A stretch of 20,621 nucleotides of DNA from a virus, in IMG/VR virus record IMGVR_UViG_3300031857_001703, positions 1 to 20,621 of that record. The stretch is one strand, 5' to 3'. The notes beneath the pieces are model-generated. The model was given only the letters and a program-made list of their open reading frames with translations. It was not told where the DNA came from and ran no database searches. The translations under genes and the position numbers were made by a program. Of the stretch, positions 7,761 to 20,596 are shown piece by piece. Positions within the stretch are counted from its first letter, which is position 1. Each line of letters begins with the position of its first letter.

Positions 7761-9824
7761 TTAGTCTCCTTCAACATTTCTAGTTAGACCAGCTTCTTCT
7801 CCAGCTCTATCAACTTTCCAGTCTGTAATAAGTTCTAAGTCTACAGTTTCTGGAAATGATGGGTTGTCTGGAACACTTACTTTGTATGAAGCAATCTTTC
7901 TTACAATAATGTCATTTCTTGGCTCTTGATCACTTTCAAGACGAGCCAAAACAAAAGGATCATCGATAATAAGAGAACACCAATCTCCTGGAGCATAGCT
8001 ACCAATTACAGGTGTTAAAGATCCATTTACAGTTAAATTAAACTCTCCAATAGGAGGTTTTGATTCATATAAATACTCTTGAGCGTACTCATAAAGAACA
8101 TCTTCATCACCAGTGTTATTTACTACTTCTACCTGATCAAGTAAAGGCCAACTTCTACCAAACTGATTGTTGAGCAGAGAAGTATCTGCTGCAACTGCAT
8201 ATGGTTGGCTTGCTGCATCAGACAGGTCTGAAATATTTCCTTCTACAAAAAATCTAGTTGCTGAGTCTTCAGCGCTTTCTTGAACAGTAAATGTAGAGAT
8301 ACTACCTGGATATTCGAATACAACTTGGTTATACCCTAGACGCTCCGCATCATCTAATTGATATGTTGTATCGGCTAAAGGATTAGGGTTTTCAATATTA
8401 AGAAGTGTAAATGTTCTTGTAAAAGATGCGGTAGATAGATCGTAATCGCAGTCAATTCTGTATTCAAAACCATTTATATTGTTAGAGTAGTCTTCTAAAA
8501 TCTCTCCAACGCTCTTTAACTCAAATCCACGAAGAACTTGAGTGTCTTGGTATAAACCACTTGTTTCATTTGTTCCTACTTCAATATCTAAATCTGAATT
8601 AGAAGCATAGGGTCCATATGTTCCATAAACTATCTTACTTCCAACAGTAGCTGTACCGCCAGAAACTGCAGCAGCTGGAATATTTACAATACTTTCTTTT
8701 AAATAACTTATAGTATTGCTTGTTACTGCAGTTATTGTAAAAGTTCCGTCAAAATTTTGATCTAGTCTTTCGTTGAAGAAAGAGTCAACACCAGAAAGAG
8801 TAACTTTTTGACCAATACCAGCTCCGTGAGGAAGATGAGTTGTAATAGTTGCCACATTGTTTGTAAGAGATCTATTTGTTACATAGAAAGTTTTTATACC
8901 TGGCAAAGTAGTAAGTAGTAAGTTAGATCCTCTATCTTCAAAAACTACAGTGTTTTCATCTGGGACATCAGTAACTGTGTGGTATCCATTAAAGGTGGTA
9001 TCTACTTCTATTACTTCAAATTCTTGACCTGGAACAAGATCGTGAGGATTTAAAGTTTTTAAAGTTACTTTTCCTTCATCTCTTTTCTTAGATATAACAG
9101 CTACTTCTATAGTTTTTCCTGGCTCTATTACATCATTTGCAAATAAACCTGGTCTAGCGTCAGTTGTTACAGATATGTCTGTAGCTACCTGAAATACAAG
9201 ATCTCTTACAAAGTCATAAGTATCTATAAGTTTTCTTGCAGCTCCGCTAGTAATTACTGTAGTTCCTACATTAGGAGCAGCTACAACATAGCTAAATCTA
9301 ACTGCTGATGTAATAGCAGTTATTTGATGAGTTCCATCAACTGTGGGATTTGTAAAGGTAACTTTTACAAAGTCTCCAACTTTAAGATTATGAGCAACTT
9401 CTGTTTCTATAGTTGCCACACCATTAGTAACAGAAAATGAAGCAACTCCTAAATATTCTGATCCGTAAATTAAAGTTTGCCATATGTGTCTATGATAAAA
9501 ATAACTTGTAAATTCTGATGCATCTACGCTAAGAGTTTTATTTGATTCACTATATTCTCTTGCCCATATGATGCCGCCCCAAACGCAAACATCATTACGC
9601 ATTACATAAAGACCAGTTCTGCCAGGCATAGTTGCTTCATAAATATTTAGCTTTTCTGTTGCAGCAACTACTGGAATACTTCCAGAAAAATTTCCTGCTT
9701 TGCGAAGCTGTCTTTCGTAAGAAACTCCAGTAAAAGGAAGCTCAGCTATAACCTGATTAGAAACTAAATCGGTAAGAAAATACCGATAGGTTATGTTTGT
9801 AAGCGTCCCATTCATTGATGTCAT
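7761..9824 (-). CDS. Tail hub/baseplate protein (Tal-like minor tail protein) with three inserted beta modules
   Basis: The 687-residue protein begins with 'YRYFLTDLVSNQVIAELPFTGVSY', then 'RKAGNFSGSIPV', 'PGRTGLYVMRNDVCVWGGIIW' and 'FTSYFYHRH'. These blocks are familiar from the minor tail protein that follows the distal tail protein in many actinobacteriophages and corresponds to the gp27/Tal hub ring. The hub parts are residues 1-125, 199-240 and 397-687. Three copies of the beta module shared with Dit and the tail tube protein lie at residues 128-182, 243-296 and 315-375. No peptidoglycan hydrolase or cell-wall binding motif is visible in it. The ATG at 9824 has AAAAGGA upstream that overlaps the previous stop codon; Met4 is a possible alternative start. 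It should form the trimeric hub below the Dit ring and contact the fibre encoded next. Sure of a tail-tip role, less sure of the exact ring. Confidence 0.85.
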   Translation of the reverse strand: MTSMNGTLTNITYRYFLTDLVSNQVIAELPFTGVSYERQLRKAGNFSGSIPVVAATEKLNIYEATMPGRTGLYVMRNDVCVWGGIIWAREYSESNKTLSVDASEFTSYFYHRHIWQTLIYGSEYLGVASFSVTNGVATIETEVAHNLKVGDFVKVTFTNPTVDGTHQITAITSAVRFSYVVAAPNVGTTVITSGAARKLIDTYDFVRDLVFQVATDISVTTDARPGLFANDVIEPGKTIEVAVISKKRDEGKVTLKTLNPHDLVPGQEFEVIEVDTTFNGYHTVTDVPDENTVVFEDRGSNLLLTTLPGIKTFYVTNRSLTNNVATITTHLPHGAGIGQKVTLSGVDSFFNERLDQNFDGTFTITAVTSNTISYLKESIVNIPAAAVSGGTATVGSKIVYGTYGPYASNSDLDIEVGTNETSGLYQDTQVLRGFELKSVGEILEDYSNNINGFEYRIDCDYDLSTASFTRTFTLLNIENPNPLADTTYQLDDAERLGYNQVVFEYPGSISTFTVQESAEDSATRFFVEGNISDLSDAASQPYAVAADTSLLNNQFGRSWPLLDQVEVVNNTGDEDVLYEYAQEYLYESKPPIGEFNLTVNGSLTPVIGSYAPGDWCSLIIDDPFVLARLESDQEPRNDIIVRKIASYKVSVPDNPSFPETVDLELITDWKVDRAGEEAGLTRNVEGD
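8700..9098 (-). repeat. Two beta modules in the Tal-like gene (copies 2 and 3)
   Basis: Residues 243-296 and 315-375 each follow the pattern 'VATITT...PHG...G..V.L.GVD..F.G.(F/H)T(I/V)T.V'. The third copy has a roughly ten-residue loop insertion (NERLDQNFDG). They lie side by side, inserted between the hub segments ending near residue 240 and resuming near 397. Confidence 0.8.
9279..9443 (-). repeat. Beta module in the Tal-like gene (copy 1)
   Basis: Residues 128-182 carry 'NGVATIETEVAHNLKVGDFVKV' style sequence with 'DGTHQITAI' and a closing 'RFSYV' strand. It is flanked by hub sequence that appears to resume at 'DTYDFVRDLV' (residues 201-210), so it is an insertion at a second, separate site. 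Confidence 0.8.
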
Positions 9825-9836
9825 TATTGAGTCCTT

Positions 9837-12461
9837 TTAACCTATCCAGCCAGACCTATAAAATACCTTAAGTAGTCCAGTACTGACTGAGTTTTTATCG
9901 TCGGTAAATTCTATGACATTATTGCTGGGTTCTAAGAAAAAGAAGTCTGTTAGAACATCAAGTTTTGCTCTGGCATTTTCATATGAGCCGTTAAGGAATA
10001 CATCTCTGGTAAGAGTATTTATTTCTAATACATCTGGACCAAAATCTGCTACTGCACCAGTTAAACCTGGAGTAAAAGGTATATTAGCTTTTTTAACTAC
10101 AATACCAGCGGCTTCAACTTCGCTGCCATCTCCATTAACAATGTTTCCATTAATAGTTGCAGTTCCACCACTATATGCAGCAAAAGGAAGGCTTCCACCA
10201 ACTCTAGCTTCGCCAGCGTCGTTTGTACTTGCTACGGATCTAGATCTTGTAACAGAAGATCCAAGTATGTATGCAGTTCCTGAAGGAGCTCCAGATGCAA
10301 TAGTTCCTGAACTTGGAGTTGTGTAGGTAAATGTATTTGCTCCAGTAACAGTGGCAATCCAAGTTCCGTTAAGAGCTGCTTCTAAACCAACTACTCGTAC
10401 ATACTGGCCATTTGTAAGATTATGAGCAACAGATGTTGTAATAGTTACTGTACTTGCATTTCTTGCTCTTAAAGATATAGGAGGGGTAAGAATATTTGTG
10501 TCAATAGCTGGCTTACCAACTCCATTAAGACGAATAACATTAAATTGTGGAGTATCTAAAACTGTGTATGTTCCGTTATAGTTGGATCCAAGACCAGCTA
10601 CAGTAACGGACTCCCCTACAATAAAATTGTGAGTTCCACTAAAAATAAGATCAAAATTTCCACCAGCAACTACTCCAGAAAAAGGTCTTATAGAGACAAG
10701 GCTTACTTTTCCTGTAGCTACAGCTATTGGAGACTCATCTGTACCAGCTGAACTAAAAACATATGTTGTGCTGCTAAGAACTGCTTTTACAGTAAAAGTT
10801 CCATTATATGAAGTATTAGCTAGATCTTGTATAACTATTGTATCTCCAACGCTTGCTTGAATACTTTCTGCAACTGTTATAGAGGCTTCATTGGCTGATC
10901 TAGCTACTGTTGTGACTGTTGAACTATAAAGTCTTGGGACATCATATGTAAACGATGTAGTGCTAGGTAGACTTTTAATTATAAAAGTTCCATTAAATGG
11001 ATTGTCAAAGTCAAGTGCTAATTGATTAGCAGTTCTATCCATATTAGACACAGAAACAACTTCATTAACAACAAACCCGTGAGCTGCACTCATAGTAATA
11101 GTTGCAACATCGTTTGTCATAGATCTAGATGTGATAGATCTTGCATCTGTTCTTGTTTTTGAATAATTAAATGTGGTTAGAGATGGTATTGAAGATATTG
11201 CGTAGCTTCCATTGTAGTTTTGATCTAAACCAGCTATCGTTACAGTCTCACCCTCAACAAAGCCGTGAGCTTCACTAGTTGTAAGACTTGCAATGTTTGA
11301 TACAAGAGTAGCTCCAGTAACAGTTCTAGCCGTGCTTCTATCTTTAGCAAAGGTAAATGAAGTAGAATTTGGTACTGTTGTTATTGTATGTGTACCGCTA
11401 AATACGCTATCTATGTCTTTTAAGAATATAGAATTTCCAACAGAAAAACCATGAGCTTCTTTTGTAAAAATAGTAGCAACATTGCTTACAAGCTTTTTTG
11501 CAACAACTGTTTTTTGAATAGCTAGGTTAAGAGGAGCAAGACTGTATTTAAATGTTGTGCTGGTTGGCACGCTAGTAATAATAAAATCGCCGTTAAGCTC
11601 TGGCTCAGAAAGACCGCTTATTTCTACAGTATCTCCTTGTAAGAACCCATGAGCAGTTGTGGTTGTAAGAGTTACTATGTCTTCTAAAGTATTTTCATCA
11701 AAGTCAAGTTGTTTGTTAACAATACGACCAGTTAATCTTCCACGAAGAGAAGAAACAATATAAAGTAGTTTATCTGTTGTTTGGTTATAAATACGAGCTG
11801 GAGCTGTAAGAGGACCAGAAATTTCAAAATTAACAGGTACGCTAACATTGCCAATATTTACTATAGTTTCAATTCCAGTAGCTCCAGTAGTTCTGTTTGT
11901 TGCTGGGATTTCCACACGCTCATATCCATCTGGATCAGAGTCATTCCATGCATATTTGATTGGGTCTGCTGCTTTTAGTCCTATTGAGAAATTAGTGCGT
12001 CCTCTTGCGTTTGCTGTTGTTATTTGAGGAGCTCCACTAAGTCTTACAAATGAAGATCTTTTATTATCTGACTCGATTCCAGTCTTAAGCCAAGCTCCTC
12101 TGTAAACAAGGTTTGTTGCTGCAATAAGGCGGTCACGAGCTGCTTCAACTAGATCTGGAGTTGGAGTTAAAAAGGTACCAGTCAAATTAACTATTCGAGC
12201 GTTATAACGACCTTTGATGTCATACGAACCATCTCCAAAACCACGAGGAATATCAGGCATGATTGGTTCTGGGTGCTGCCACCAGCCTTCAATATCTGTG
12301 ATTACCCAAATTACGCCATACTCATCAATAGTATTAAAAAGAAAATCTCCCAAGGCAATATCGCCTTGCAACTTCATACCAGTTAGATGCGGGAAAGGAA
12401 GATTGGTAAGAGATTTATTTACAATAGCGTTCTCTTGAGAGCGATTATAAACTTCGGCCAT
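9837..12461 (-). CDS. Distal tail (Dit-like) protein with seven inserted beta modules
   Basis: The 874-residue protein has a normal actinophage-type Dit/minor tail core: residues 1-255 include 'VIWVITDIEGWW', 'RGFGDGSYDIKGRYNARIV' and 'RGAWLKTGIE', and the end is 'FFFLEPSNNVIEF ... VFYRSGWIG'. Between 'QLDFDENTLED' (about 251-261) and 'VLEINTLTRDVFLNGS' (811-826) lies an insertion of about 550 residues, most of it seven copies of a beta module at about 258-308, 323-372, 384-434, 446-506, 519-570, 586-646 and 664-714. After the seventh copy residues 715-810 are a different Gly/Ala/Ser-rich stretch. Without the insertion the protein would be about 320 residues, near the usual length. The start overlaps the tape measure stop by one nt (TAATG) with AAAGGAG 7 nt upstream. 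It should form the hexameric ring that joins tail tube and tip. Confidence 0.88.
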   Translation of the reverse strand: MAEVYNRSQENAIVNKSLTNLPFPHLTGMKLQGDIALGDFLFNTIDEYGVIWVITDIEGWWQHPEPIMPDIPRGFGDGSYDIKGRYNARIVNLTGTFLTPTPDLVEAARDRLIAATNLVYRGAWLKTGIESDNKRSSFVRLSGAPQITTANARGRTNFSIGLKAADPIKYAWNDSDPDGYERVEIPATNRTTGATGIETIVNIGNVSVPVNFEISGPLTAPARIYNQTTDKLLYIVSSLRGRLTGRIVNKQLDFDENTLEDIVTLTTTTAHGFLQGDTVEISGLSEPELNGDFIITSVPTSTTFKYSLAPLNLAIQKTVVAKKLVSNVATIFTKEAHGFSVGNSIFLKDIDSVFSGTHTITTVPNSTSFTFAKDRSTARTVTGATLVSNIASLTTSEAHGFVEGETVTIAGLDQNYNGSYAISSIPSLTTFNYSKTRTDARSITSRSMTNDVATITMSAAHGFVVNEVVSVSNMDRTANQLALDFDNPFNGTFIIKSLPSTTSFTYDVPRLYSSTVTTVARSANEASITVAESIQASVGDTIVIQDLANTSYNGTFTVKAVLSSTTYVFSSAGTDESPIAVATGKVSLVSIRPFSGVVAGGNFDLIFSGTHNFIVGESVTVAGLGSNYNGTYTVLDTPQFNVIRLNGVGKPAIDTNILTPPISLRARNASTVTITTSVAHNLTNGQYVRVVGLEAALNGTWIATVTGANTFTYTTPSSGTIASGAPSGTAYILGSSVTRSRSVASTNDAGEARVGGSLPFAAYSGGTATINGNIVNGDGSEVEAAGIVVKKANIPFTPGLTGAVADFGPDVLEINTLTRDVFLNGSYENARAKLDVLTDFFFLEPSNNVIEFTDDKNSVSTGLLKVFYRSGWIG
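10320..11690 (-). repeat. Seven-copy beta-module array in the Dit-like gene
   Basis: Each unit of 50-61 residues has a first strand 'VAT(I/L)TT', the signature 'AHGF..G..V.(I/V).G', then 'YNG(T/S)(Y/F).I' and a last strand '(S/T)TTF.Y'. Copies 1-4 and 7 are close to consensus. Copy 4 has about ten extra residues before 'FNGTF', copy 5 lacks the AHGF motif, and copy 6 is longer and more diverged. Units are separated by 10-20 residue linkers rich in Ser, Thr and Arg. Such small beta modules are common in phage tail proteins and resemble Ig-like or carbohydrate-binding add-ons; the fold is inferred. Confidence 0.88.
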
Positions 12462-15400
12462 TACGCGGCTCCTTTACGAAGTTGGAAAGCAAGTTGACGA
12501 GAAACTAGATTTGCAAGTTCACGCTCATCCATTCCAGCAGATGGGTTAATAGTTATTTGAATTCCTCTTGAATCTCCTGCAAGAAGTTCAATCATTGCTC
12601 TATCTCTAGCTGATAGTCCTTGAGAATCTAAAGGCTCTATACGCTCTGGACGCCCAGCTTCTGCTAAAAGAGCTAGAGTTCCTTTATCACTAGGCATAAC
12701 AATTCCACCTTCAGCAAGGCGAGGAATGTTTGGAGTTCCTATAGTAAATCCACTAAAAGCTGGAATAATAGTTATCTTACCTGCTTTTACTGCGTCCCAT
12801 CCGTCAAATTTAAATTCTAATTTATTCCAACCATCAATAACATAGTTAATTGCACTTTTAAAACTATTTTTTAGACCAGCAAAAATATCCCCAATACTTA
12901 AATCTCCTATTTTGCCGAATATTTCTTTAAGTTTATTGAATACAGTTTCTGCAGTTGATTTAAGTGTATTCCATTTATCTACTACATTCTGAATTACACT
13001 TATAAATCCTAAAATAGATTCTTTGATTATATTAATAGCTGCTATTAATGTAAACTTAAGTAAAGGAACTATAGTTACAGCAAGAATGTCTCCTAATATT
13101 CTAAAGATATTAGAAACTCCACCAAGAGGCTCTAGCAGCTGATCTATAGCTGTTTTTATTTCGGTCCAAGCTTTTTGTAGTTCTTTTAAAACTTCCGAAC
13201 CTAGTTGGCTGAGAGCTTTTCTTAACTTCTCGCTACTTGCATAAATTATAACAAGCAGAGCAATAACTCCTGTAACTATTCCGCCAACAAGTAAGAATCT
13301 CTTGCTTACAAAATCAAGGCCGTATGTTAAGAATACAAGTTCTTGTCTAAGTGCTAATACTGCTTTTGTAGCTGGACCAGACCAAATACCAATACCGCGA
13401 AGACCAACATCTATAAATTTAGTTATATTAAGCAAAGCTCCACCAACAGCATTTCCATAAAATGTAACAGCTTTAAAAGCTAAACCACCTGCAGCACTGA
13501 AGGCAAGTAAAGTTCCAGTAACAGTTAGAAGAGCTTTACCGAATGGGTTGTCTAATAAGAAAACTAGTCCTTCAATAAGAGTTGTTAGAGTTCTAAAGAA
13601 TATAACTATGGCTTCAGAGCTAGTGATTACTGCAGTTAATTTTGCAATAGCAACAATAAGCTCGCCTAAAGCACTTAAGGCTCCGCCTTCTTGAGAAAGA
13701 GTCAAACCTATTTCATTAAATATGATAACCGCTTCTTTTAAAGAAGTTAAAAATTCGCCAAAACCTGGTGCAGCAGCAATTTCTATTAAACCTAAAGCAA
13801 TAAGACCGATTACTTCTAAAAGAAGAGTAAAGTTTTGTGTAAGCTGTAGAAGGAACTTTTGAAGGTCTCCACTTTCGCTAAGAGCCTTAGTTGTGTCTTC
13901 CCAGCCTTTAGTTATATCTTTTAGCCAAGTTATAAAGTACTCTCCAGAGCTTCCTGGCCCTATTGAAGCTGCAATAATTGTGCCAAGAGCACTAAATGTG
14001 TTTCCAATGGCTTCGCCTAGACCTCTTACAATATCGGTAGAGTCTTTAAATATTGTAGCTAGCTCTCCAGTTTCTTTCTTTAGAGCTATAGTCTTTTCAA
14101 GTGCTTCAGCTTTTTTCTGAATAAACTGAGCAAACTCAATTGTGTAAGGTATAAATGCTGACTGTAAAGCAACAAATGCGGAAGACAAAGCAATGAAAGC
14201 TTTACCAAGAGCATCAACTATAGGAGTAAACGATTCAAATATTTCTTTTACTTCTTGAGCTTTACCTGGTTCGCTAAATGTATCTGCAAATAGCTTGGAT
14301 AGTTCTCCAAGTTTTGCAGCAAGTCTTATTAGAGCTTCTTCAAGATTAGCTGGAGCACCTGGTGCAAAGTATGTTTCATAAAGAAGTTTTATGGCTTCTG
14401 TAAACTTAGGGAAGAAAGCTTCTTGAAGTTTTTTACGAAGTTCTTCAAAAGCTTCTTTAAGACTAAGAATGTATTTAACAAAGTCTTGAGCGGCTGGAGA
14501 AAGTTTATCTAAAGCAGCTGCAAATTCATCTATACCTTGTGGTTTCTTTGCTTCAGCTAAGGCATCCTGAGCGTTTTTAAGTTCTCTATATGCAAGCTCT
14601 AATTCTCTTGCATTTTGCTTGTCAACTTCTCCGCCATCAATTGCTCTTTCTCTAGCCGCATTTAAATCTTCTATTGCTTCCTTATAAGATATAACAGACC
14701 TAGCTGCATCTATTTGAGCGTCAGATTCGTTTTGTTGAGCTTGGACAAGGCGTTCTTGGGCAGCTACAACTCTTTCATTACCATCTACGCCTTCACGATT
14801 AGCTTTTGCATTTGCTTTGCGAAGATCATTATTTCTATCAATTGCCTTACGAAGATTGAGGTCTGCTTCAGCAAATGCAAGCTCAGCTTCACGACGAGCA
14901 CGGGAGTTAGGTGGAAGATCTTGAACTCTTTGGAGAGAGTCACGGGCTTTTTCAAACTCAAGGCGAGCTTTCTTTTCAGAAATAACTCCACCTTCAAGCT
15001 CAAATCGAAGTTGTTGAATCGCTTCTTTAGCATCTTCACGAGCTTTTGTTACTTGTTCTAAAGCTTTTTCTGTATTTGATACAGCGTCTCTGTATGCTCT
15101 TTCAGCTCTTTCTGATGCAATAGCAGCATCTGCTACTGCTTGAGAAGCATCTGATTCTGCTTCTATAGCTTCTTTCTTTCGTTTTGCATTCTCTACTAAA
15201 GTTTGGTTGTAGTTATATAAAGCATCATTTGCTCTGTCTGTAGCTGCTTTAATTTGTGCAGCTTGAGCTGCAGCATTTTGTCCAACTTTTGCCCCAGCTT
15301 GTATAGCTTCTGTTACTCCACCGAATGCAGCTCTAAGAACTGCTGCCGATGCTGCTACTGCTAAAAATGCACCAGATAACCCTAATAAGGCAGGTGTAGC

Positions 15401-15745
15401 ACCAGCTGCTATAGCAGCTAAAGAACCAATACCTCCAACTACAGATCCAATAATTCCGCCAAGAGCAGTTAAGCTAGCAGCTAATGTGTAACCAACTCGA
15501 GCTAAAGATAAGAACTGCTGTCGTGCCGCTGTAAATCTATCTACATCTCCTTGAGATAAAGATTTACCAAAGAGAGAAGCAACATCTCCTCTGCTTCTAT
15601 TAAATCCTCTAGAAAATCCAGCTCCAGCATCTGTACCTGCTCTTTCGCCAATGCGATCAGCACCATCAAATGCTCTTTGAATATCATTTTTAACACCAGT
15701 GGTAATGGCACGAACAATTACCGATGCTTCACCTACAACTGCCAT
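12461..15745 (-). CDS. Tape measure protein
   Basis: At 1094 residues this is the longest gene, placed directly after the tail assembly chaperone pair, as expected for the protein that sets tail length. Residues 84-146 are a long hydrophobic Gly/Ala stretch. Residues about 155-402 are a charged heptad-like coiled coil, and further hydrophobic helices follow ('VIGLIALGLIEIAA', 'FLLVGGIVTGVIALLVII', 'ILAVTIVPLLKFTLIAAI'). The C-terminal part has 'LAEGGIVMPSDKGTLALLAEAG', a motif common near tape measure C-termini. No lysozyme or peptidase motif is seen. With the usual rule of about 0.15 nm per residue the tail would be about 160 nm (inference). The start has a near-perfect AGGAGGTG site, and the stop overlaps the Dit start. 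Confidence 0.95.
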   Translation of the reverse strand: MAVVGEASVIVRAITTGVKNDIQRAFDGADRIGERAGTDAGAGFSRGFNRSRGDVASLFGKSLSQGDVDRFTAARQQFLSLARVGYTLAASLTALGGIIGSVVGGIGSLAAIAAGATPALLGLSGAFLAVAASAAVLRAAFGGVTEAIQAGAKVGQNAAAQAAQIKAATDRANDALYNYNQTLVENAKRKKEAIEAESDASQAVADAAIASERAERAYRDAVSNTEKALEQVTKAREDAKEAIQQLRFELEGGVISEKKARLEFEKARDSLQRVQDLPPNSRARREAELAFAEADLNLRKAIDRNNDLRKANAKANREGVDGNERVVAAQERLVQAQQNESDAQIDAARSVISYKEAIEDLNAARERAIDGGEVDKQNARELELAYRELKNAQDALAEAKKPQGIDEFAAALDKLSPAAQDFVKYILSLKEAFEELRKKLQEAFFPKFTEAIKLLYETYFAPGAPANLEEALIRLAAKLGELSKLFADTFSEPGKAQEVKEIFESFTPIVDALGKAFIALSSAFVALQSAFIPYTIEFAQFIQKKAEALEKTIALKKETGELATIFKDSTDIVRGLGEAIGNTFSALGTIIAASIGPGSSGEYFITWLKDITKGWEDTTKALSESGDLQKFLLQLTQNFTLLLEVIGLIALGLIEIAAAPGFGEFLTSLKEAVIIFNEIGLTLSQEGGALSALGELIVAIAKLTAVITSSEAIVIFFRTLTTLIEGLVFLLDNPFGKALLTVTGTLLAFSAAGGLAFKAVTFYGNAVGGALLNITKFIDVGLRGIGIWSGPATKAVLALRQELVFLTYGLDFVSKRFLLVGGIVTGVIALLVIIYASSEKLRKALSQLGSEVLKELQKAWTEIKTAIDQLLEPLGGVSNIFRILGDILAVTIVPLLKFTLIAAINIIKESILGFISVIQNVVDKWNTLKSTAETVFNKLKEIFGKIGDLSIGDIFAGLKNSFKSAINYVIDGWNKLEFKFDGWDAVKAGKITIIPAFSGFTIGTPNIPRLAEGGIVMPSDKGTLALLAEAGRPERIEPLDSQGLSARDRAMIELLAGDSRGIQITINPSAGMDERELANLVSRQLAFQLRKGAA

Positions 15746-15750
15746 GCCAT

Positions 15751-15758
15751 CACCTCCT
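15751..15758 (-). promoter_or_regulatory. Near-perfect Shine-Dalgarno for the tape measure gene
   Basis: AGGAGGTG precedes the ATG at 15745 by 5 nt and overlaps the TAG stop of the upstream chaperone frame (TAGGAGGTG). Another ATG at 15750-15748 is out of frame and too close to the site, so 15745 is the start. Confidence 0.8.
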
Positions 15759-16188
15759 AGTGCTCAAGTGGAGAATCTAAATTTTCTCCGAATGGTTTGA
15801 TTAGATCTGGATTGAAGTCCGTTGGTGGGAAATAGGACTTTGTGGGCTCTTGTGTAGGGTCCACAGGAACAATAGGGTCATCTTCAAAACCAGAAGCTGT
15901 TGGTCTTGAGTAACTTTTTTGTCCAAACTTAAACTCTCTGTCATAGACGAGTTTATATAGAACAGCTCTAGATTTGTCACGAGCTTCTGCTTGTTCTGCA
16001 GAATCAACTCTAAAATCTTCTTCCATGTAATAATGCAAGACATCAAGCATGTCTGACATATCCATTTCAGTTAGTTTTAGTCCGCTCACTAGTGCTTTTC
16101 CATTCAGATACGGCCAGAGTTCTACTGCCCACTCAGCGATTGCTCTGGCCCCTGCGTAGGGCGGCCTGAATACTGTTCTACTAGCCAT
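15757..16188 (-). CDS. Tail assembly chaperone, second frame (lambda GT-like extension)
   Basis: This 143-codon frame overlaps the end of the first chaperone frame by 67 nt and lies in its -1 frame, directly before the tape measure gene. That is the place and geometry of the lambda G-T type extension. The frame stays open upstream of its first ATG (16188), as expected if it is entered by frameshifting. The part beyond the overlap is helical and acidic ('MDMSDMLDVLHYYMEED', 'AEARDKSRAVLYKLVYD') and ends in a Pro/Asp-rich tail. A -1 slip at the GGGG at 16149-16152 would give a fusion of 238 residues. AGGAG at 16199-16203 lies 10 nt before the ATG, so separate initiation is also possible. The chaperone pair helps load the tape measure into the growing tail. 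The role is firm by synteny; the expression mechanism is not proven. Confidence 0.85.
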   Translation of the reverse strand: MASRTVFRPPYAGARAIAEWAVELWPYLNGKALVSGLKLTEMDMSDMLDVLHYYMEEDFRVDSAEQAEARDKSRAVLYKLVYDREFKFGQKSYSRPTASGFEDDPIVPVDPTQEPTKSYFPPTDFNPDLIKPFGENLDSPLEH

Positions 16189-16472
16189 CCTGTAATTGCT
16201 CCTAGTGTTTCCACATTCACAATTTTTTCTGGGTCTTCGATCAGTGCAGAGAATCGCACATAGCTCTCTTTTGTAAGAGCTTTAGAAAATACATCTTTTA
16301 CAGTATCAACTGCATCTGCGCTGTTTCCACTTCCAGCTTTAGCTGCAATATCAAGAATTACGCTACCTTGAAGATTCTTTACACATTCGAAAGTTTCTCC
16401 ATGTAGTTTGAAAGAAATTGGCTCGGAATTTACTCCTTCGCCTGATCCAAAATCTTTGAATCGTGTTGTCAT
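16122..16472 (-). CDS. Tail assembly chaperone, first frame (lambda G-like)
   Basis: The 116-residue protein has the usual content of the actinophage first chaperone: 'FKLHGETFECVKNLQGSVILDIAA' (a small beta part with a conserved Gly), a helical middle 'VDTVKDVFSKALTKESYVRFSALIEDPEKI', then 'VETLGAITGWLVEQYSGRPT', the familiar end before the frameshift. The start has AAGGAA upstream and follows the gp10-like gene by 28 nt. In related phages this protein binds the tape measure and is made in excess over the frameshifted form. Confidence 0.88.
   Translation of the reverse strand: MTTRFKDFGSGEGVNSEPISFKLHGETFECVKNLQGSVILDIAAKAGSGNSADAVDTVKDVFSKALTKESYVRFSALIEDPEKIVNVETLGAITGWLVEQYSGRPTQGPEQSLSGQ
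16146..16154 (-). other. Candidate -1 ribosomal frameshift site
   Basis: In the first chaperone frame the codons are CAG GGG CCA, just after the conserved GRPT end. The tRNA on GGG can re-pair with GGG one base back because four G residues lie at 16149-16152. The following CCA to GCC pairing is poor, so this is not a canonical X-XXY-YYZ heptamer. A second candidate is GAA AAA ATT at 16221-16229, where six A residues let Lys-tRNA slip. The frame relation requires -1 (or +2) slippage. Confidence 0.45.
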
Positions 16473-16500
16473 CAGTTTTCCTTATCTGTCGTTGGTTTAA

Positions 16501-16884
16501 TTATATCTTGGCTCTTAAGGCGTTACTTAAATATTTATTTGCTTTAGTGCCTGGATGTTGCACCGAATGGGTGTAAACAATCCGACCACGAGAGGCAAAC
16601 CTAAGCATTTTTCCACTTTTTGGAACAATGGTTCTAGGTCCAGTACCTTCATGGTGCGCTAACGCATAATCTAAAGTAGAACCTACCCAGACATATTGAC
16701 CTCTTGAATCTCTCATATGTCTCATATGAAGAGATGCTCGAAGTTTTCCAGTTCTTACTCCGACTAAAGATCTAGCCATAGTAAGAATTTCTCTTCCTTT
16801 ATTTTTTAGAAATCTTCCAACATCACCATTAGGATTGTTTAGAAGATTGTCTAAAGTTGAATCGTAAATTACTACTCTAACCAT
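16501..16884 (-). CDS. HK97 gp10-like head-tail / tail completion protein
   Basis: The 127-residue form starting 'MVRVVIYDS' is basic. It shows 'ARSLVGVRTGKLRASLHM', 'YALAHHEGTGPRTI', 'GKMLRFASRGRIVYTHSVQHPGTKANKYL', the characteristic blocks of the HK97 gp10 family, which act at the head-tail joint. A longer reading to 16992 exists, but the start at 16884 overlaps the upstream stop by one nt (TAATG). The extra 36 residues of the longer form are the antisense-like reading of the upstream gene's conserved end, so I prefer the short form. It lies between the tail terminator-like gene and the chaperones. Confidence 0.87.
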   Translation of the reverse strand: MVRVVIYDSTLDNLLNNPNGDVGRFLKNKGREILTMARSLVGVRTGKLRASLHMRHMRDSRGQYVWVGSTLDYALAHHEGTGPRTIVPKSGKMLRFASRGRIVYTHSVQHPGTKANKYLSNALRAKI

Positions 16885-17390
16885 TACGGAACCGCCACGG
16901 TTATAGTCATAGTTACGGTTTGAAACCCGCCTTCTGGGGCATTGGTTTCTACTGTTGCAATAACGCCAAGACCAAAATTTGCTGGATCCCAACGATCCAA
17001 CTCTCTTGCGCTATCCAACAGAATCCATGCGTCATACGCTGATATTTCGGAAGCATCTTGAATTGCATCAGCTGACGGTGCTCTACCGTTCTGTCCTACA
17101 GTAGGAACCTCACGAGAAACTTGAACTAATAAAGTTGCAGATCTTGGGTCATTGCAGCGACGAGGAGTAGTTGCTTCATCTCCTGGACTACCAATATACA
17201 TTTGCAACATAGAAACTACAACTTGTTCGCAATCAACTGCAGGTGTTCCTAAAGTCCAATACCTGCGGCCAGGTAGAGGCATTGTGTATGAAGTGTATGA
17301 TGCTATGACTGCATCCAGTACACCTTGCATAAGATTAGCTAAATTTTTAGCATCTGCAGATACTGTTGCTGGATTTACTTCTAAGCCCAT
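16884..17390 (-). CDS. Tail terminator / head-tail connector protein
   Basis: The 168-residue protein contains 'MPLPGRRYWTLGTPAVDCEQVVVSM', 'TPRRCNDPRSATLLVQVSREVPT' and 'AYDAWILLDSARELD', blocks that recur in the small protein between head-tail adaptor and gp10-like protein in many actinobacteriophages. That protein is usually called tail terminator or head-to-tail connector. The C-terminal strand pair ('GFQTVTMTITVAV') fits the small beta-barrel fold of terminators. The start has AGAGGA 6 nt upstream, 27 nt after the adaptor stop. The structural role is secure; which ring it forms is inferred. Confidence 0.75.
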   Translation of the reverse strand: MGLEVNPATVSADAKNLANLMQGVLDAVIASYTSYTMPLPGRRYWTLGTPAVDCEQVVVSMLQMYIGSPGDEATTPRRCNDPRSATLLVQVSREVPTVGQNGRAPSADAIQDASEISAYDAWILLDSARELDRWDPANFGLGVIATVETNAPEGGFQTVTMTITVAVP

Positions 17391-17417
17391 TTGTCCTCTT
17401 GTCTCTTGGTTCTACAA

Positions 17418-18554
17418 TTACACAGTATATATTGGAATAGTTCTCTCACCGAGATGAGTGATGATATTGCTTGAAACTAAATGAACAACTTCTTCTACCG
17501 CTGGGTTTCCAAGGCTTGGTCTTACAGCATACATATCTAGAATACCTGGATCACGAGGACCTATTACATCTAAAGCTTGCTTGTATGTGCAGCTAAGTCT
17601 GATTGTATTTGCAACTCTATCTATTACAGCTGCGCTTGGTATCTCTACTGTTTTATTGTTGTTTATATCTGAAAAATCAATTTGTATAGTCCAAGCATTG
17701 CTTCCGTCAAGGAAGTCAGCATTGATTTCTGAGAAATAATAAAGATTAGATGCACCATCAGCTGTTACATAAATATCAAATGCGCTAAGTGGGTAAAGAG
17801 GAGATGCGCCAGTAATACGGCGTGCACGAGGTTGGTCTGGGCTAAAGACACGAGCACGAGCACGAGCTTTATCTGGATTAGCAGTCTTGAGGAAAAGATC
17901 TACTGCGTAAAGACCAGTTTTAAGTTCATCAATGAAATCTTGATTATCAAGGATTGTGTAAGAAACACCTTGGCGAGATACGGCAGTAACTCTTTGTGGC
18001 AAAGCACAGGTATCATCACCTTCATAGAGCTTTACTAGCTCAGAGGCAAGGAGTCTTGCTGCAGCACGACCAGCTGTTGGTGGCTCAGTTCCATAGGTGT
18101 AAGTAACTTCTACTTGAGAAGGAGACCAGCCAGCTCCTGGTACGCCAAGAATGGTTGAGTGGTCTGATAAATAATACTTACTTGGGTCAATAATATTTCC
18201 ATCAAGATCACGAAGAGTATGAACCCTGATTACTTTGCGACCACGAAGACGAACTCTAGAATTGGCAGATGTTCCATCACCCTGAAAGTCATCATCTGCA
18301 TAACGATTAAATCCACCAGAAGCAATATTTACAACATTGCCATCCACTAGAACTGGTGTGTAGGTAAGGCTAGATCCACCTGAACGAAGGTATGGATCAT
18401 AAGAAGAGACATAACGCTCTGTAACAGTTGTAATTCCACTGTATTTACGGCCAGACATGGCCCAGAGTAGATAAGAAGCTGTCTTACAAGCCTCATAAGC
18501 ATAATCAGACGAAGGGGTGCTTAACTCTTCTGGTGTTACCCATAGGTTACTCAT
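17418..18554 (-). CDS. Head-to-tail adaptor with extra C-terminal domain
   Basis: In this 378-residue protein residues 1-60 ('WVTPEELS...YAYEACKTASYLLWAMSGRKYSGITTVTERY') and 150-245 ('AARLLASELVKLYEGDDTCALPQRVTAVSRQGVSYTI...') match the head-tail adaptor/connector of actinobacteriophages, a mostly helical protein that docks on the portal. The middle strand 'VEVTYTYGTEPPTAG' is also typical. Residues about 250-378 form an added beta-rich domain ('AFDIYVTADGASNLYYFSEI') that I do not see in the shorter family members I know. The start has a clear GAGGTGA site 5 nt upstream. A triplet-like CGAGCA repeat at about 17848-17867 encodes Ala-Arg-Ala-Arg-Ala-Arg. It follows the hairpin that separates it from the tail tube gene. 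Confidence 0.82.
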   Translation of the reverse strand: MSNLWVTPEELSTPSSDYAYEACKTASYLLWAMSGRKYSGITTVTERYVSSYDPYLRSGGSSLTYTPVLVDGNVVNIASGGFNRYADDDFQGDGTSANSRVRLRGRKVIRVHTLRDLDGNIIDPSKYYLSDHSTILGVPGAGWSPSQVEVTYTYGTEPPTAGRAAARLLASELVKLYEGDDTCALPQRVTAVSRQGVSYTILDNQDFIDELKTGLYAVDLFLKTANPDKARARARVFSPDQPRARRITGASPLYPLSAFDIYVTADGASNLYYFSEINADFLDGSNAWTIQIDFSDINNNKTVEIPSAAVIDRVANTIRLSCTYKQALDVIGPRDPGILDMYAVRPSLGNPAVEEVVHLVSSNIITHLGERTIPIYTV

Positions 18555-18581
18555 GAAATCACCTCGTCTCTAAGTAAGTAA

Positions 18582-18624
18582 GGCGGGCACAAGACCGTAG
18601 TGTAAACATCGGCTCATGCCCGCC
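18582..18624 (-). terminator. GC-rich hairpin between tail tube and adaptor genes
   Basis: In the 82-nt gap, perfect 8-bp arms GGCGGGCA (minus strand 18624-18617) and TGCCCGCC (18589-18582) enclose a 27-nt loop that itself holds a CCG/CGG pair. AAG precedes and CTT-like bases follow, then TTACTTACTTAG. The tail after the stem is T-rich but interrupted, so it could be a partial intrinsic terminator or a 3'-end stabiliser after the two most highly expressed genes. It lies 12 nt after the tail tube stop. Confidence 0.55.
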
Positions 18625-18636
18625 CTTCTTATGGAA

Positions 18637-19686
18637 TTAAGCGGTTGGATCCTCAGTCGACGCAATGATGAAGTCAATTGCATTGTCTGCGTTGTAATCG
18701 GTATTACCTGGAACATTGTATGCAGATGTTGAGCCTTGTGAGGCGAAGTCTGATACTGCAAGGTATCCGCGATTACGAAGTACTGATCCAGCTGGGCTAA
18801 CAGCTGCAGATGTTACATCTCCAGTGTCTGGCTTTGCATAACGGAATGTTGTTGTAGTTGGTACAGCTGTGATTGTGTAAGTTCCGTTGAATGTTGAATC
18901 AACTCCGCTTACTGTCACGCTCTGACCTACCTCGAATCCGTGTGCTGAACCTGTTGTTAGGGTCGCAACATTTGATGTAAGAGCCTTGTTGGTAACGGTC
19001 TTTGTAGACTCGTCAAACCAGCGATAGAAGCCCTTTAGACCTGATGGTGCCCATGAAGCACGAGCATATGAGTATGAACGCTCAGTTGCTACTGGGAACT
19101 CCCAACGACCATCTAAACCAGCTCCGAAGCTAACATTGCCTAAGCCGTAGCCTTCGAATGTGGTTGCAAGCATTCCGTTTTCAATTACGCGGTCTCCGCT
19201 TTGGCGAAGCTTTGCGTATGGGAATACCCAGTGGAAGTAAGGGTTGGTTGCTGTACGGCGACCATCTGCTACAGCAAATGACCACACTTCTAGTGCTACG
19301 CCGTTACCTGTTGGGTCGTCGCCAACGGATGGTGCGGCCCAACCGATTGACTTGTTCTGTGGGGATGCAAAGCTTCCGAAGTTCTTTCGGAGTAGCAAGC
19401 CGCCAGAGAGTAGTTGTGAAAGTTCTGTATCTGGTTCGCAAATTGCGAGTTCCATTGTAATGCGCTTGAGGGTGTCAGGGGCTTTGTATGATACACATAC
19501 AGTACCGTCTGCTGACTTCTCAACAATTTCGTCACCCTCTTCATATTCAGGGGTGAAGGAAGCGCGGAGGAACGCCGAGGTTGTATAGCTGTCTCCCGCT
19601 CCATTGAGCAGATTTCCAGCGGCGTCCAGTCTGGTGACTCGGATCGCCACACCTTGGACGCTAGCCGCAAAGTCCTGAGTGGCCAT
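18637..19686 (-). CDS. Major tail tube protein with one C-terminal beta module
   Basis: This 349-residue protein opens with 'QDFAASVQGVAIRVTRLDAAGNLL', 'FLRASFTPEYEEGDEIVEKSADGTVCVSYKAPDTLKRI' and 'LELAIC'-like 'ELAICEPDTELSQLLSGG'. These are familiar blocks of actinophage major tail tube proteins, whose hexameric rings stack to form the tail. The tube domain covers residues about 1-225. Residues 231-288 are one copy of the beta module found in Dit and Tal ('SNVATLTTGSAHGFEVG ... FNGTYTI...TTFRYAK'), followed by a 60-residue C-terminal part. The ATG has AAAGGAGA upstream, 28 nt after the capsid gene stop. The position directly after the capsid gene, upstream of the adaptor genes, is unusual. 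GC content is higher than in later tail genes, fitting high expression. Confidence 0.85.
   Translation of the reverse strand: MATQDFAASVQGVAIRVTRLDAAGNLLNGAGDSYTTSAFLRASFTPEYEEGDEIVEKSADGTVCVSYKAPDTLKRITMELAICEPDTELSQLLSGGLLLRKNFGSFASPQNKSIGWAAPSVGDDPTGNGVALEVWSFAVADGRRTATNPYFHWVFPYAKLRQSGDRVIENGMLATTFEGYGLGNVSFGAGLDGRWEFPVATERSYSYARASWAPSGLKGFYRWFDESTKTVTNKALTSNVATLTTGSAHGFEVGQSVTVSGVDSTFNGTYTITAVPTTTTFRYAKPDTGDVTSAAVSPAGSVLRNRGYLAVSDFASQGSTSAYNVPGNTDYNADNAIDFIIASTEDPTA
18823..18996 (-). repeat. Beta module in the tail tube gene
   Basis: This is the copy at residues 231-288 of the tail tube protein and is the closest to consensus of all eleven: 'VATLTT', 'AHGFEVGQSVTVSGVD', 'FNGTYTITAVP', 'TTTFRYA'. 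It lies after the tube domain, as in other phages that carry an Ig-like domain on the outer tail surface. Confidence 0.85.
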
Positions 19687-19714: not shown

Positions 19715-20596
19715 CTAGGTTGTAGGTAGTGCTAAACGAATTGTGTAGAAGATACTTGGATCAAAGTATACCGCTGCTGCACGAACAGCTTTGACTGTTA
19801 AGTCATTTGTGTTTGTGCTTACAGTTGCACCTTGACCAAGATTCTCATTTACGATTTCGATCTTGCTTAGGTGTACATCGACTGGTCCTGTTGCAAACAT
19901 CCACTTATTTGAAGCAGATGCTGTGGTGTTAGCGTCTGTTAGACGACCAGCACCTGTGTAACCAGAGCCAATTACGACTTCAGTTCCTAAACGAGTCATT
20001 GCCTTACCTGTTTTTCCTCCATCTGCTGGCAAATAGATGATGCGGGATCCGAGGATTGACGCAACATCGCGGGTCATATGAATGACTCCGTTGATACCTG
20101 CTGGTGATGAAGAAATCGCTTGTTCTAACAGCATAAGTGCTGTTGCTGGAGCTAATGCACCGCTGTTTACAACGGTTGCTACTCCTGTTTCCCTTAGAAA
20201 ATCATTTCCGTTTGTCTCTGCAGTTGCTGCTACGCCTTCCCAAAGCTCGAGCTCTACTGCTTTCTGTGTTGCTACTTCTAGCTGTGCTTTTGCAATTGCA
20301 AAACGATCTTCCCCATTGATGCCAAAATATGAACGAGTGTCTGTTACTTGAATAAAGAACGGATCGTACTCTTTAAACTGTGGAAGTGTAGATGTTCCAA
20401 CAGTTCCACCTGTCACAGCTGCATCATTAACTGTGAAAAGTTCTACCTCGGGTTGTGAATCAAACTCATAGCTAAAACCACGAACCCAACGCTCGTCGTA
20501 GTTTGCTGATGTATGTGTCATAACCCGAGCGACACTTAGAAGTCCGCAAGGTGCTTGAACCAAATCTGGTGCTGGATAGATTCCTCTAAACGCCAT
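19715..20596 (-). CDS. Major capsid protein
   Basis: The 293-residue protein has the features of a small HK97-fold capsid subunit: an N-terminal arm, a region 'EYDPFFIQVTDTRSYFGINGEDRFAIAKAQLEVATQKAVELELWEG' that fits the long spine helix, an A-domain-like 'GVIHMTRDVASILGSRIIYLPADGG' and a late beta strand 'LTVKAVRAAAVYFDPSIFYTIRL'. No large N-terminal scaffold segment is present, so scaffold and protease are probably separate upstream genes outside the window. The ATG has AGGAG 10 nt upstream. It is immediately followed by the tail tube gene and has higher GC than the tail genes, as expected for the most abundant virion protein. The assignment rests on order and fold-like pattern rather than a diagnostic motif. 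Confidence 0.75.
   Translation of the reverse strand: MAFRGIYPAPDLVQAPCGLLSVARVMTHTSANYDERWVRGFSYEFDSQPEVELFTVNDAAVTGGTVGTSTLPQFKEYDPFFIQVTDTRSYFGINGEDRFAIAKAQLEVATQKAVELELWEGVAATAETNGNDFLRETGVATVVNSGALAPATALMLLEQAISSSPAGINGVIHMTRDVASILGSRIIYLPADGGKTGKAMTRLGTEVVIGSGYTGAGRLTDANTTASASNKWMFATGPVDVHLSKIEIVNENLGQGATVSTNTNDLTVKAVRAAAVYFDPSIFYTIRLALPTT

Follow-up and report, generated by a model that had tools for sequence, protein, structure and literature searches.

The 20,621 bases of virus record IMGVR_UViG_3300031857_001703 were analysed in full (the window); they are a fragment of a phage genome, and their minus strand carries head-to-tail genes for a capsid-side protein, the tail tube, a head-tail adaptor, neck and chaperone proteins, the tape measure, a distal tail protein (Dit), a Tal-like tail protein and a fibre. 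This gene order is shared with Actinomycetia phage DSL-LC01 (129 kb) and with Microbacterium phages Pumpernickel and Cece (about 186 kb), and a nucleotide search with the whole window among phages returned no match. Eleven related modules lie in three of the encoded proteins, one in the tail tube, seven in Dit and three in Tal. The reading favoured here, with a probability of roughly 0.65, is that the module is a mobile virion-surface small barrel of the E1-FCCH/endosialidase type, about 80 aa long, that would bind glycans of the host or the environment weakly; sequence relationships and analogy with other phages point this way. The carrier genes and their modules are listed below, with the leave-one-out (LOO) score of each module.

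18637..19686, minus strand: major tail tube protein, 349 aa, with tube domain (1-223), inserted module (224-307) and C-terminal tail (308-349); phrog_792, 8e-22; Microbacterium phage homologues 64-67% identical
18766..19017, minus strand: tube module, full inserted barrel, aa 224-307; 87.5 bits; precisely missing from the DSL-LC01 tube protein
18799-18996, minus strand: tube module, conserved part, aa 231-296
9837..12461, minus strand: Dit-like distal tail protein, 874 aa, with domain I (1-240), seven-module array and C-terminal domain (782-868); phrog_5577; PF22768 at 810-872; Foldseek matches to Dit structures
11517..11726, minus strand: Dit module 1, aa 246-315; 58.2 bits; the sole one with a counterpart in the DSL-LC01 Dit
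11322..11516, minus strand: Dit module 2, aa 316-380; 64.0 bits
11136..11321, minus strand: Dit module 3, aa 381-442; 70.6 bits
10920..11135, minus strand: Dit module 4, aa 443-514, with a longer loop; 48.8 bits
10710..10919, minus strand: Dit module 5, aa 515-584, without the AHGF motif; 34.1 bits
10491..10703, minus strand: Dit module 6, aa 587-657; 31.2 bits
10272..10478, minus strand: Dit module 7, aa 662-730; 45.2 bits
7761..9824, minus strand: Tal-like tail protein, 687 aa, three modules; phrog_1885, 1.8e-31
9231..9449, minus strand: Tal module 1, aa 126-198; 33.8 bits
8895..9110, minus strand: Tal module 2, aa 239-310; 43.1 bits
8655..8888, minus strand: Tal module 3, aa 313-390; 53.5 bits

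Detection and fold of the modules

Each module was scored with a hidden Markov model (HMM) built from the other ten, with 1000 shuffles per module as the control. The eleven scores range from 31.2 to 87.5 bits and the best shuffle reached at most 13.6 bits, which rules out chance or low-complexity similarity; a six-frame scan of the window found no module beyond the eleven. The original prediction had described the same eleven modules as one family across the three proteins, and both the count and the kinship are upheld by these HMMs (LOO 31-88 bits against at most 13.6 in shuffles) and the scan. Its length of 50-60 residues was too short, since about 62-78 residues are conserved and the unit that folds, with six strands, has about 80 (224-307 in the tube protein), and the motifs that it gave for the module vary a great deal, AHGF being gone altogether from Dit module 5.

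In structure models the module is a small beta-barrel of six strands, predicted to fold independently. The tube insert is predicted by AlphaFold2 (AF2) at a pLDDT of about 96, with strands at 227-237, 240-245, 256-260, 268-277, 280-284 and 291-304. The AF2 model of Dit (mean pLDDT 84.6, pTM 0.48) has seven units of this kind following domain I and preceding the C-terminal domain, with pLDDT about 90 over the array, and its solved neighbours in Foldseek are the Dits of SPP1 (2x8k), p2, 80alpha, Douge (8zdo) and Bxb1 (9d93). An empty site exists in nature: the DSL-LC01 tube protein lacks residues 224-307 and is 75% identical to that of the window over 1-223 and 67% over 308-349; in Gordonia phage Phendrix and Arthrobacter phage Mimi, the tube protein stops shortly past the tube domain. 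The DSL-LC01 Dit, at 385 aa against 874, carries a single module along with domain I and the C-terminal domain, and it is matched by domain I and residues 810-874 of the window Dit. The earlier proposal of an add-on domain outside the core folds is thus borne out by the empty site and by the modelling of the tube insert as a unit of its own; the beta-sandwich proposed with it was right as to beta structure, but the fold matches small beta-barrels in AF2, Foldseek and a profile search of the PDB.

Distribution over virion and bacterial surface proteins

The wider occurrence of the module was surveyed in about 180 related loci, in which proteins were assigned with module-free queries and complete proteins were counted; because similarity to the tube protein was the basis for retrieving the loci, the sample is biased towards tube modules. 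A scan of IMG/VR gave 521 relatives of the tube protein, and 80 of these, 79-94% identical, were kept. Among 175 tube proteins the module is absent from 25, single in 141 and present in two to four copies in 9, so that it is kept in about 86% of those sampled (150/175). Dit proteins carry up to 8 modules (none in 11 proteins, 6 or 7 in 28) and Tal proteins 2-9. One module is found in 24/176 head-tail adaptors and in 13/146 capsid-side proteins; module-bearing open reading frames (ORFs) of 455-467 aa are head-tail adaptors, both by reading and by the module-free queries. None was found in the tape measure (0/83), neck1 (0/169), the two chaperones (0/161 and 0/135) or the phrog_810 protein (0/171). 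The capsid-side protein, adaptor, tube, Dit and Tal are all exterior in siphophage virions, the phrog_779 protein, to which no function is assigned, being provisionally placed on the capsid side from its position beside the major capsid gene in relatives, and together these five families carry the module in 264/585 proteins, against 0/726 for all others (Fisher p 1e-111, descriptive only, the sequences being related). The surface-only pattern known from phage Ig-like domains is therefore also that of the module in phages, and the original placement of the modules in exterior tail proteins agrees with it. The accompanying claim that they occur nowhere in the head is true of the window and false for the clade. 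Because capsid-side proteins and adaptors of related phages carry modules, the module-free head of the window is a local fact and not a rule. The corresponding empty sites in the window are these.

19715..20596, minus strand: capsid-side protein (phrog_779, 3.4e-23); relatives carry their module after GSGY(T/S)G, at window aa ~217, by alignment with module-bearing homologues
17418..18554, minus strand: head-tail adaptor (phrog_783, 5.6e-37); relatives carry their module in a C-terminal extension after window aa ~310, by the same kind of alignment

At its C-terminus the window adaptor is extended by about 130 aa that the adaptors of Phendrix, Mimi and Cece lack, and the module of relatives sits there. 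In four phages with a single module in Dit (L062, L063, L064 and L086), Tal is longer (about 805 aa) and contains 4-5 modules, a pattern that looks like compensation between the two arrays, and further minor tail proteins of Pumpernickel (L004:34535-38887) and Cece (L006:33087-36812) hold around ten partial or full modules each.

Bacterial copies were sought in contig scans with a single module as query. The cultured Ca. Planktophila LanE-43 encodes a surface protein of 3452 aa with Flg_new, fn3 and glycine-rich domains (L104:4323-14681), in which one Listeria-Bacteroides (Flg_new) repeat is interrupted, immediately ahead of its last strand, by a module that shares 69% identity with the tube module of the window; none of the other modules in the window phage is as close to that tube module. 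Two isolated phages, E7 and F5, infect LanE-43 (PMC10202952). The module was found in a 732-aa protein of E7, and 11/101 genomes sampled from the family of LanE-43 have a module match. At least five modules, several of which lie within fn3-like segments, are present in a subtilase-like secreted protein of another actinobacterial genome (L220:3-7721, G355:C9; at least 2573 aa), and close copies also occur in two metagenome bins filed under other phyla, where binning errors are possible. The host of the window phage is probably also a freshwater actinobacterium, given that DSL-LC01 comes from lake water and that the hosts of the other relatives are actinobacterial. It may be suggested, tentatively, that a mobile small-barrel adhesion domain is common to the surface proteins of freshwater actinobacteria and to the phage virions of that niche, in which case phage and cell would have the same part, sticking to the same polymers or to each other.

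Putative glycan binding

The case for glycan binding begins with homology. A profile built from 41 diverse modules has as its top solved-structure match in the PDB the barrel of the phi92 endosialidase (4hiz, E 3.9e-6, residues 198-252). Residues 439-492 of K1F gp17 score 15.6 bits, against at most 5.3 in 300 shuffles, and 11.7 bits with a second module profile, against 5.9 in shuffles; homology in sequence thus extends over the endosialidase barrel, more weakly for K1F than for phi92. Foldseek matches of the tube model are the endosialidases 3ju4, 3gvj and 4hiz together with UBA1 and UBA6, at a probability of about 1.0 and E of about 1e-3 to 4e-2. The K1F barrel forms one of three polysialic-acid sites and is a hotspot of host discrimination, with S460 and S468 in that site (PMC12632334); in the HMM alignment these two serines fall on the conserved VS-G and N-G positions of the module. 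Like the module, the barrels of phi92 (4hiz) and K1F (1v0e, 3ju4) are domains within a virion protein, but there a single barrel lies inside a tailspike enzyme, whereas here many are spread over tube, Dit, Tal, neck and capsid-side proteins, none of them an enzyme.

Two database families come close to the module. The whole window Dit matches PF16190 (E1_FCCH) at 32.7 bits, above the cut-off of 29.5, and single modules reach 15.7-17.4 bits, below it; the tube and Tal proteins gave no E1_FCCH match in a Pfam search up to E of 1. The tube model matches UBA6 (7sol) and UBA1 (4ii3) in Foldseek at probability 1.0 and E of 2e-3 to 4e-2, matched residue ranges not being given, and the match of the module profile to the UBA1 entry 2lzj/2v31 is weak (E 0.87). 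PHROG 9998 matches all three carrier proteins of the window. The name E1_FCCH, however, derives from the ubiquitin E1 enzyme, and PHROG 9998 has no function attached.

Analogy provides the second line of evidence. The window Dit has the layout of the evolved Dits (evoDits) of lactococcal skunaviruses and of the insert-bearing Dits of Corndog and Bxb1, in which accessory domains are set on a conserved Dit core; its fold matches and the comparison with DSL-LC01 place the insertions between conserved N- and C-terminal regions, and the Corndog insert likewise lies between domain I and the C-terminal domain. The inserts themselves differ: those of the lactococcal phages are BppA-like carbohydrate-binding modules (CBMs), that of Corndog is Rossmann-like and Bxb1 has three CTE-like domains, whereas here there are up to eight barrels in tandem, and those of the window matched no CBM or BppA family in Pfam or PHROG. 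Evolved Dits have been shown to bind host cells (PMC10688798), as have the glycan-binding Ig-like domains on the capsid and tube of Douge (PMC13033339) and the CBMs on the neck, tube and Dit of 936 phages (PMC6669499). In the latter two, as here, one kind of accessory domain decorates head or neck, tube and tip, although the module is of another fold with no Ig or CBM family match. Several closer identifications were set aside. Bxb1 was the top Foldseek match of the Dit model, but its Dit has no module by HMM, so the layouts are alike and the domains different; an Ig-like domain finds no Ig family match in Pfam, and the best matches of the six-stranded unit are barrels; matches to BsmI (E 0.009) were lost with a broader module profile, and one to the Mystique tube (E 1e-4 with a Dit profile, 0.84 with the module profile) did not persist. 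Surface accessory domains are thus known from siphophages, and what is new here is that the fold is a barrel, that the Dit arrays are long, that the domain extends over capsid side, neck, tube and tip and that bacterial surface proteins share it; a literature search, with most subscription journals outside its reach, found no paper describing the module on phages.

Taken together, the homologous polysialic-acid-binding barrel of endosialidases and the tested analogues on other siphophages suggest that the module probably binds glycans. Surface-polymer binding had been offered earlier as a possibility, and these homologues and host-binding analogues make it the more plausible. The barrel would be inserted whole into virion-surface proteins, at their exposed loops or termini, and would bind host-surface or other environmental glycans weakly, and the many copies per virion would amplify that binding through avidity, holding the phage against the cell while the tail tip finds the true receptor. 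Siphophage tails measure about 0.15 nm per tape-measure residue and about 4 nm per hexameric ring, from which a tape measure of 1094 aa would give about 40 tube rings, and a virion would carry about 240 tube, 42 Dit and 9 Tal modules. With modules on the tail, copies on the head and neck of close relatives and others in bacterial surface proteins, the module looks like a reusable sticky patch for attachment to host cells.

Several points weigh against glycan binding. The match of the module profile to the K1F endosialidase (1v0e/3gvj, E 0.06) is weak alone; we know of no sugar-binding role for the FCCH barrels of E1; the tube body is poorly modelled (pLDDT mostly under 60), and exposure of the module on the assembled tube is something we infer; and the tube module, judged by its substitution rates, gives no sign of an arms race, strong diversifying selection not being supported. 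It is also conceivable, though rather unlikely, that the modules bind no ligand and are structural beads, acting as spacers that make the Dit and Tal arms longer or that stiffen and widen the exterior of the tube. The tandem Dit array with its variable length of 0-8, the modelling of its modules as consecutive units and the lack of an invariant aromatic sugar-binding signature would all suit such beads; scattered single insertions in the capsid-side protein, the adaptor and secreted bacterial proteins are hard to explain in this way, and among solved structures the module is most closely related to the barrels of tailspikes that degrade capsules. If the barrel does bind glycans, it would help to explain the adsorption of abundant, poorly culturable phages of freshwater actinobacteria, add another fold beside Ig-like domains and CBMs to the decorations of virion surfaces, and provide a function for a domain named in databases after a ubiquitin enzyme. 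DSL-LC01 and the window phage form a presence/absence pair that makes the glycan-binding idea directly testable.

Inheritance and selection

Presence of the module on the tree of tube domains requires two changes, the simplest history being a single gain, later than the split of the DSL-like lineages, and a single loss. Two tube proteins that count as losses on the tree (L134:8206-9348 and L142:367-1506) have, where the module would be, a domain about as large that goes unrecognised by the HMM and is probably a diverged module. Unlike presence in the tube, the length of the Dit array is highly variable. Against 120 relatives, dN of the tube module is about 2.2 times that of the tube domain, and in close pairs dN/dS is 0.10 for the module and 0.09 for the tube domain, indicating purifying selection; a part that evolves faster yet is constrained fits a functional accessory domain. 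These values bear on the idea that the barrel is a tolerated passenger, spreading through harmless insertion with no selected benefit. Clean insertion into loops of unrelated proteins and the roughly doubled dN of the tube module would be expected of a passenger, but retention in 150/175 tube proteins, with so few changes on the tree and dN/dS of about 0.1, indicates that the tube module is maintained, and the strict absence from the large tape measure proteins (0/83) argues for a role at the surface; the idea is accordingly improbable.

Sequence comparison indicates that each window module is inherited at its own position. Identity is 71-94% between the window modules and those at the same position in other phages, but does not exceed 55% between modules in different proteins of the window phage. 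In a 91-row tree, with deep forks unresolved, nearly every window module pairs with its positional ortholog, mostly with strong support; forcing all eleven into one clade costs 781 log-likelihood units (approximately unbiased (AU) test, p 7e-6), and the best neighbour, under 90% identity, lies in the same genome for 1/585 modules. Identities, tree and AU test rule out recent duplication within the genome or concerted evolution. The original prediction that one module spread among the neighbouring tail genes of this phage, whose modules should then form a single clade, is, for recent copying, the least probable account of all: the three carriers are indeed near neighbours, and the wider clade has some cross-protein neighbours (for example Tal module 3 and a tube module, support 100/85), but the identities favour positional orthologs and the single clade is rejected.

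The other genes of the window complete the head-to-tail order, with small neck and chaperone genes between the head-tail adaptor and the tape measure.

12461-15745, minus strand: tape measure, 1094 aa
6127-7758, minus strand: fibre gene

Before the tape measure gene, at 15757-16472, two overlapping ORFs in different frames probably encode chaperones for tail assembly, perhaps by way of a programmed frameshift. In the fibre protein, short units of the A-V-T-T-D-K-I kind are repeated over long stretches, and a Peptidase_S74 chaperone domain lies at the C-terminus.

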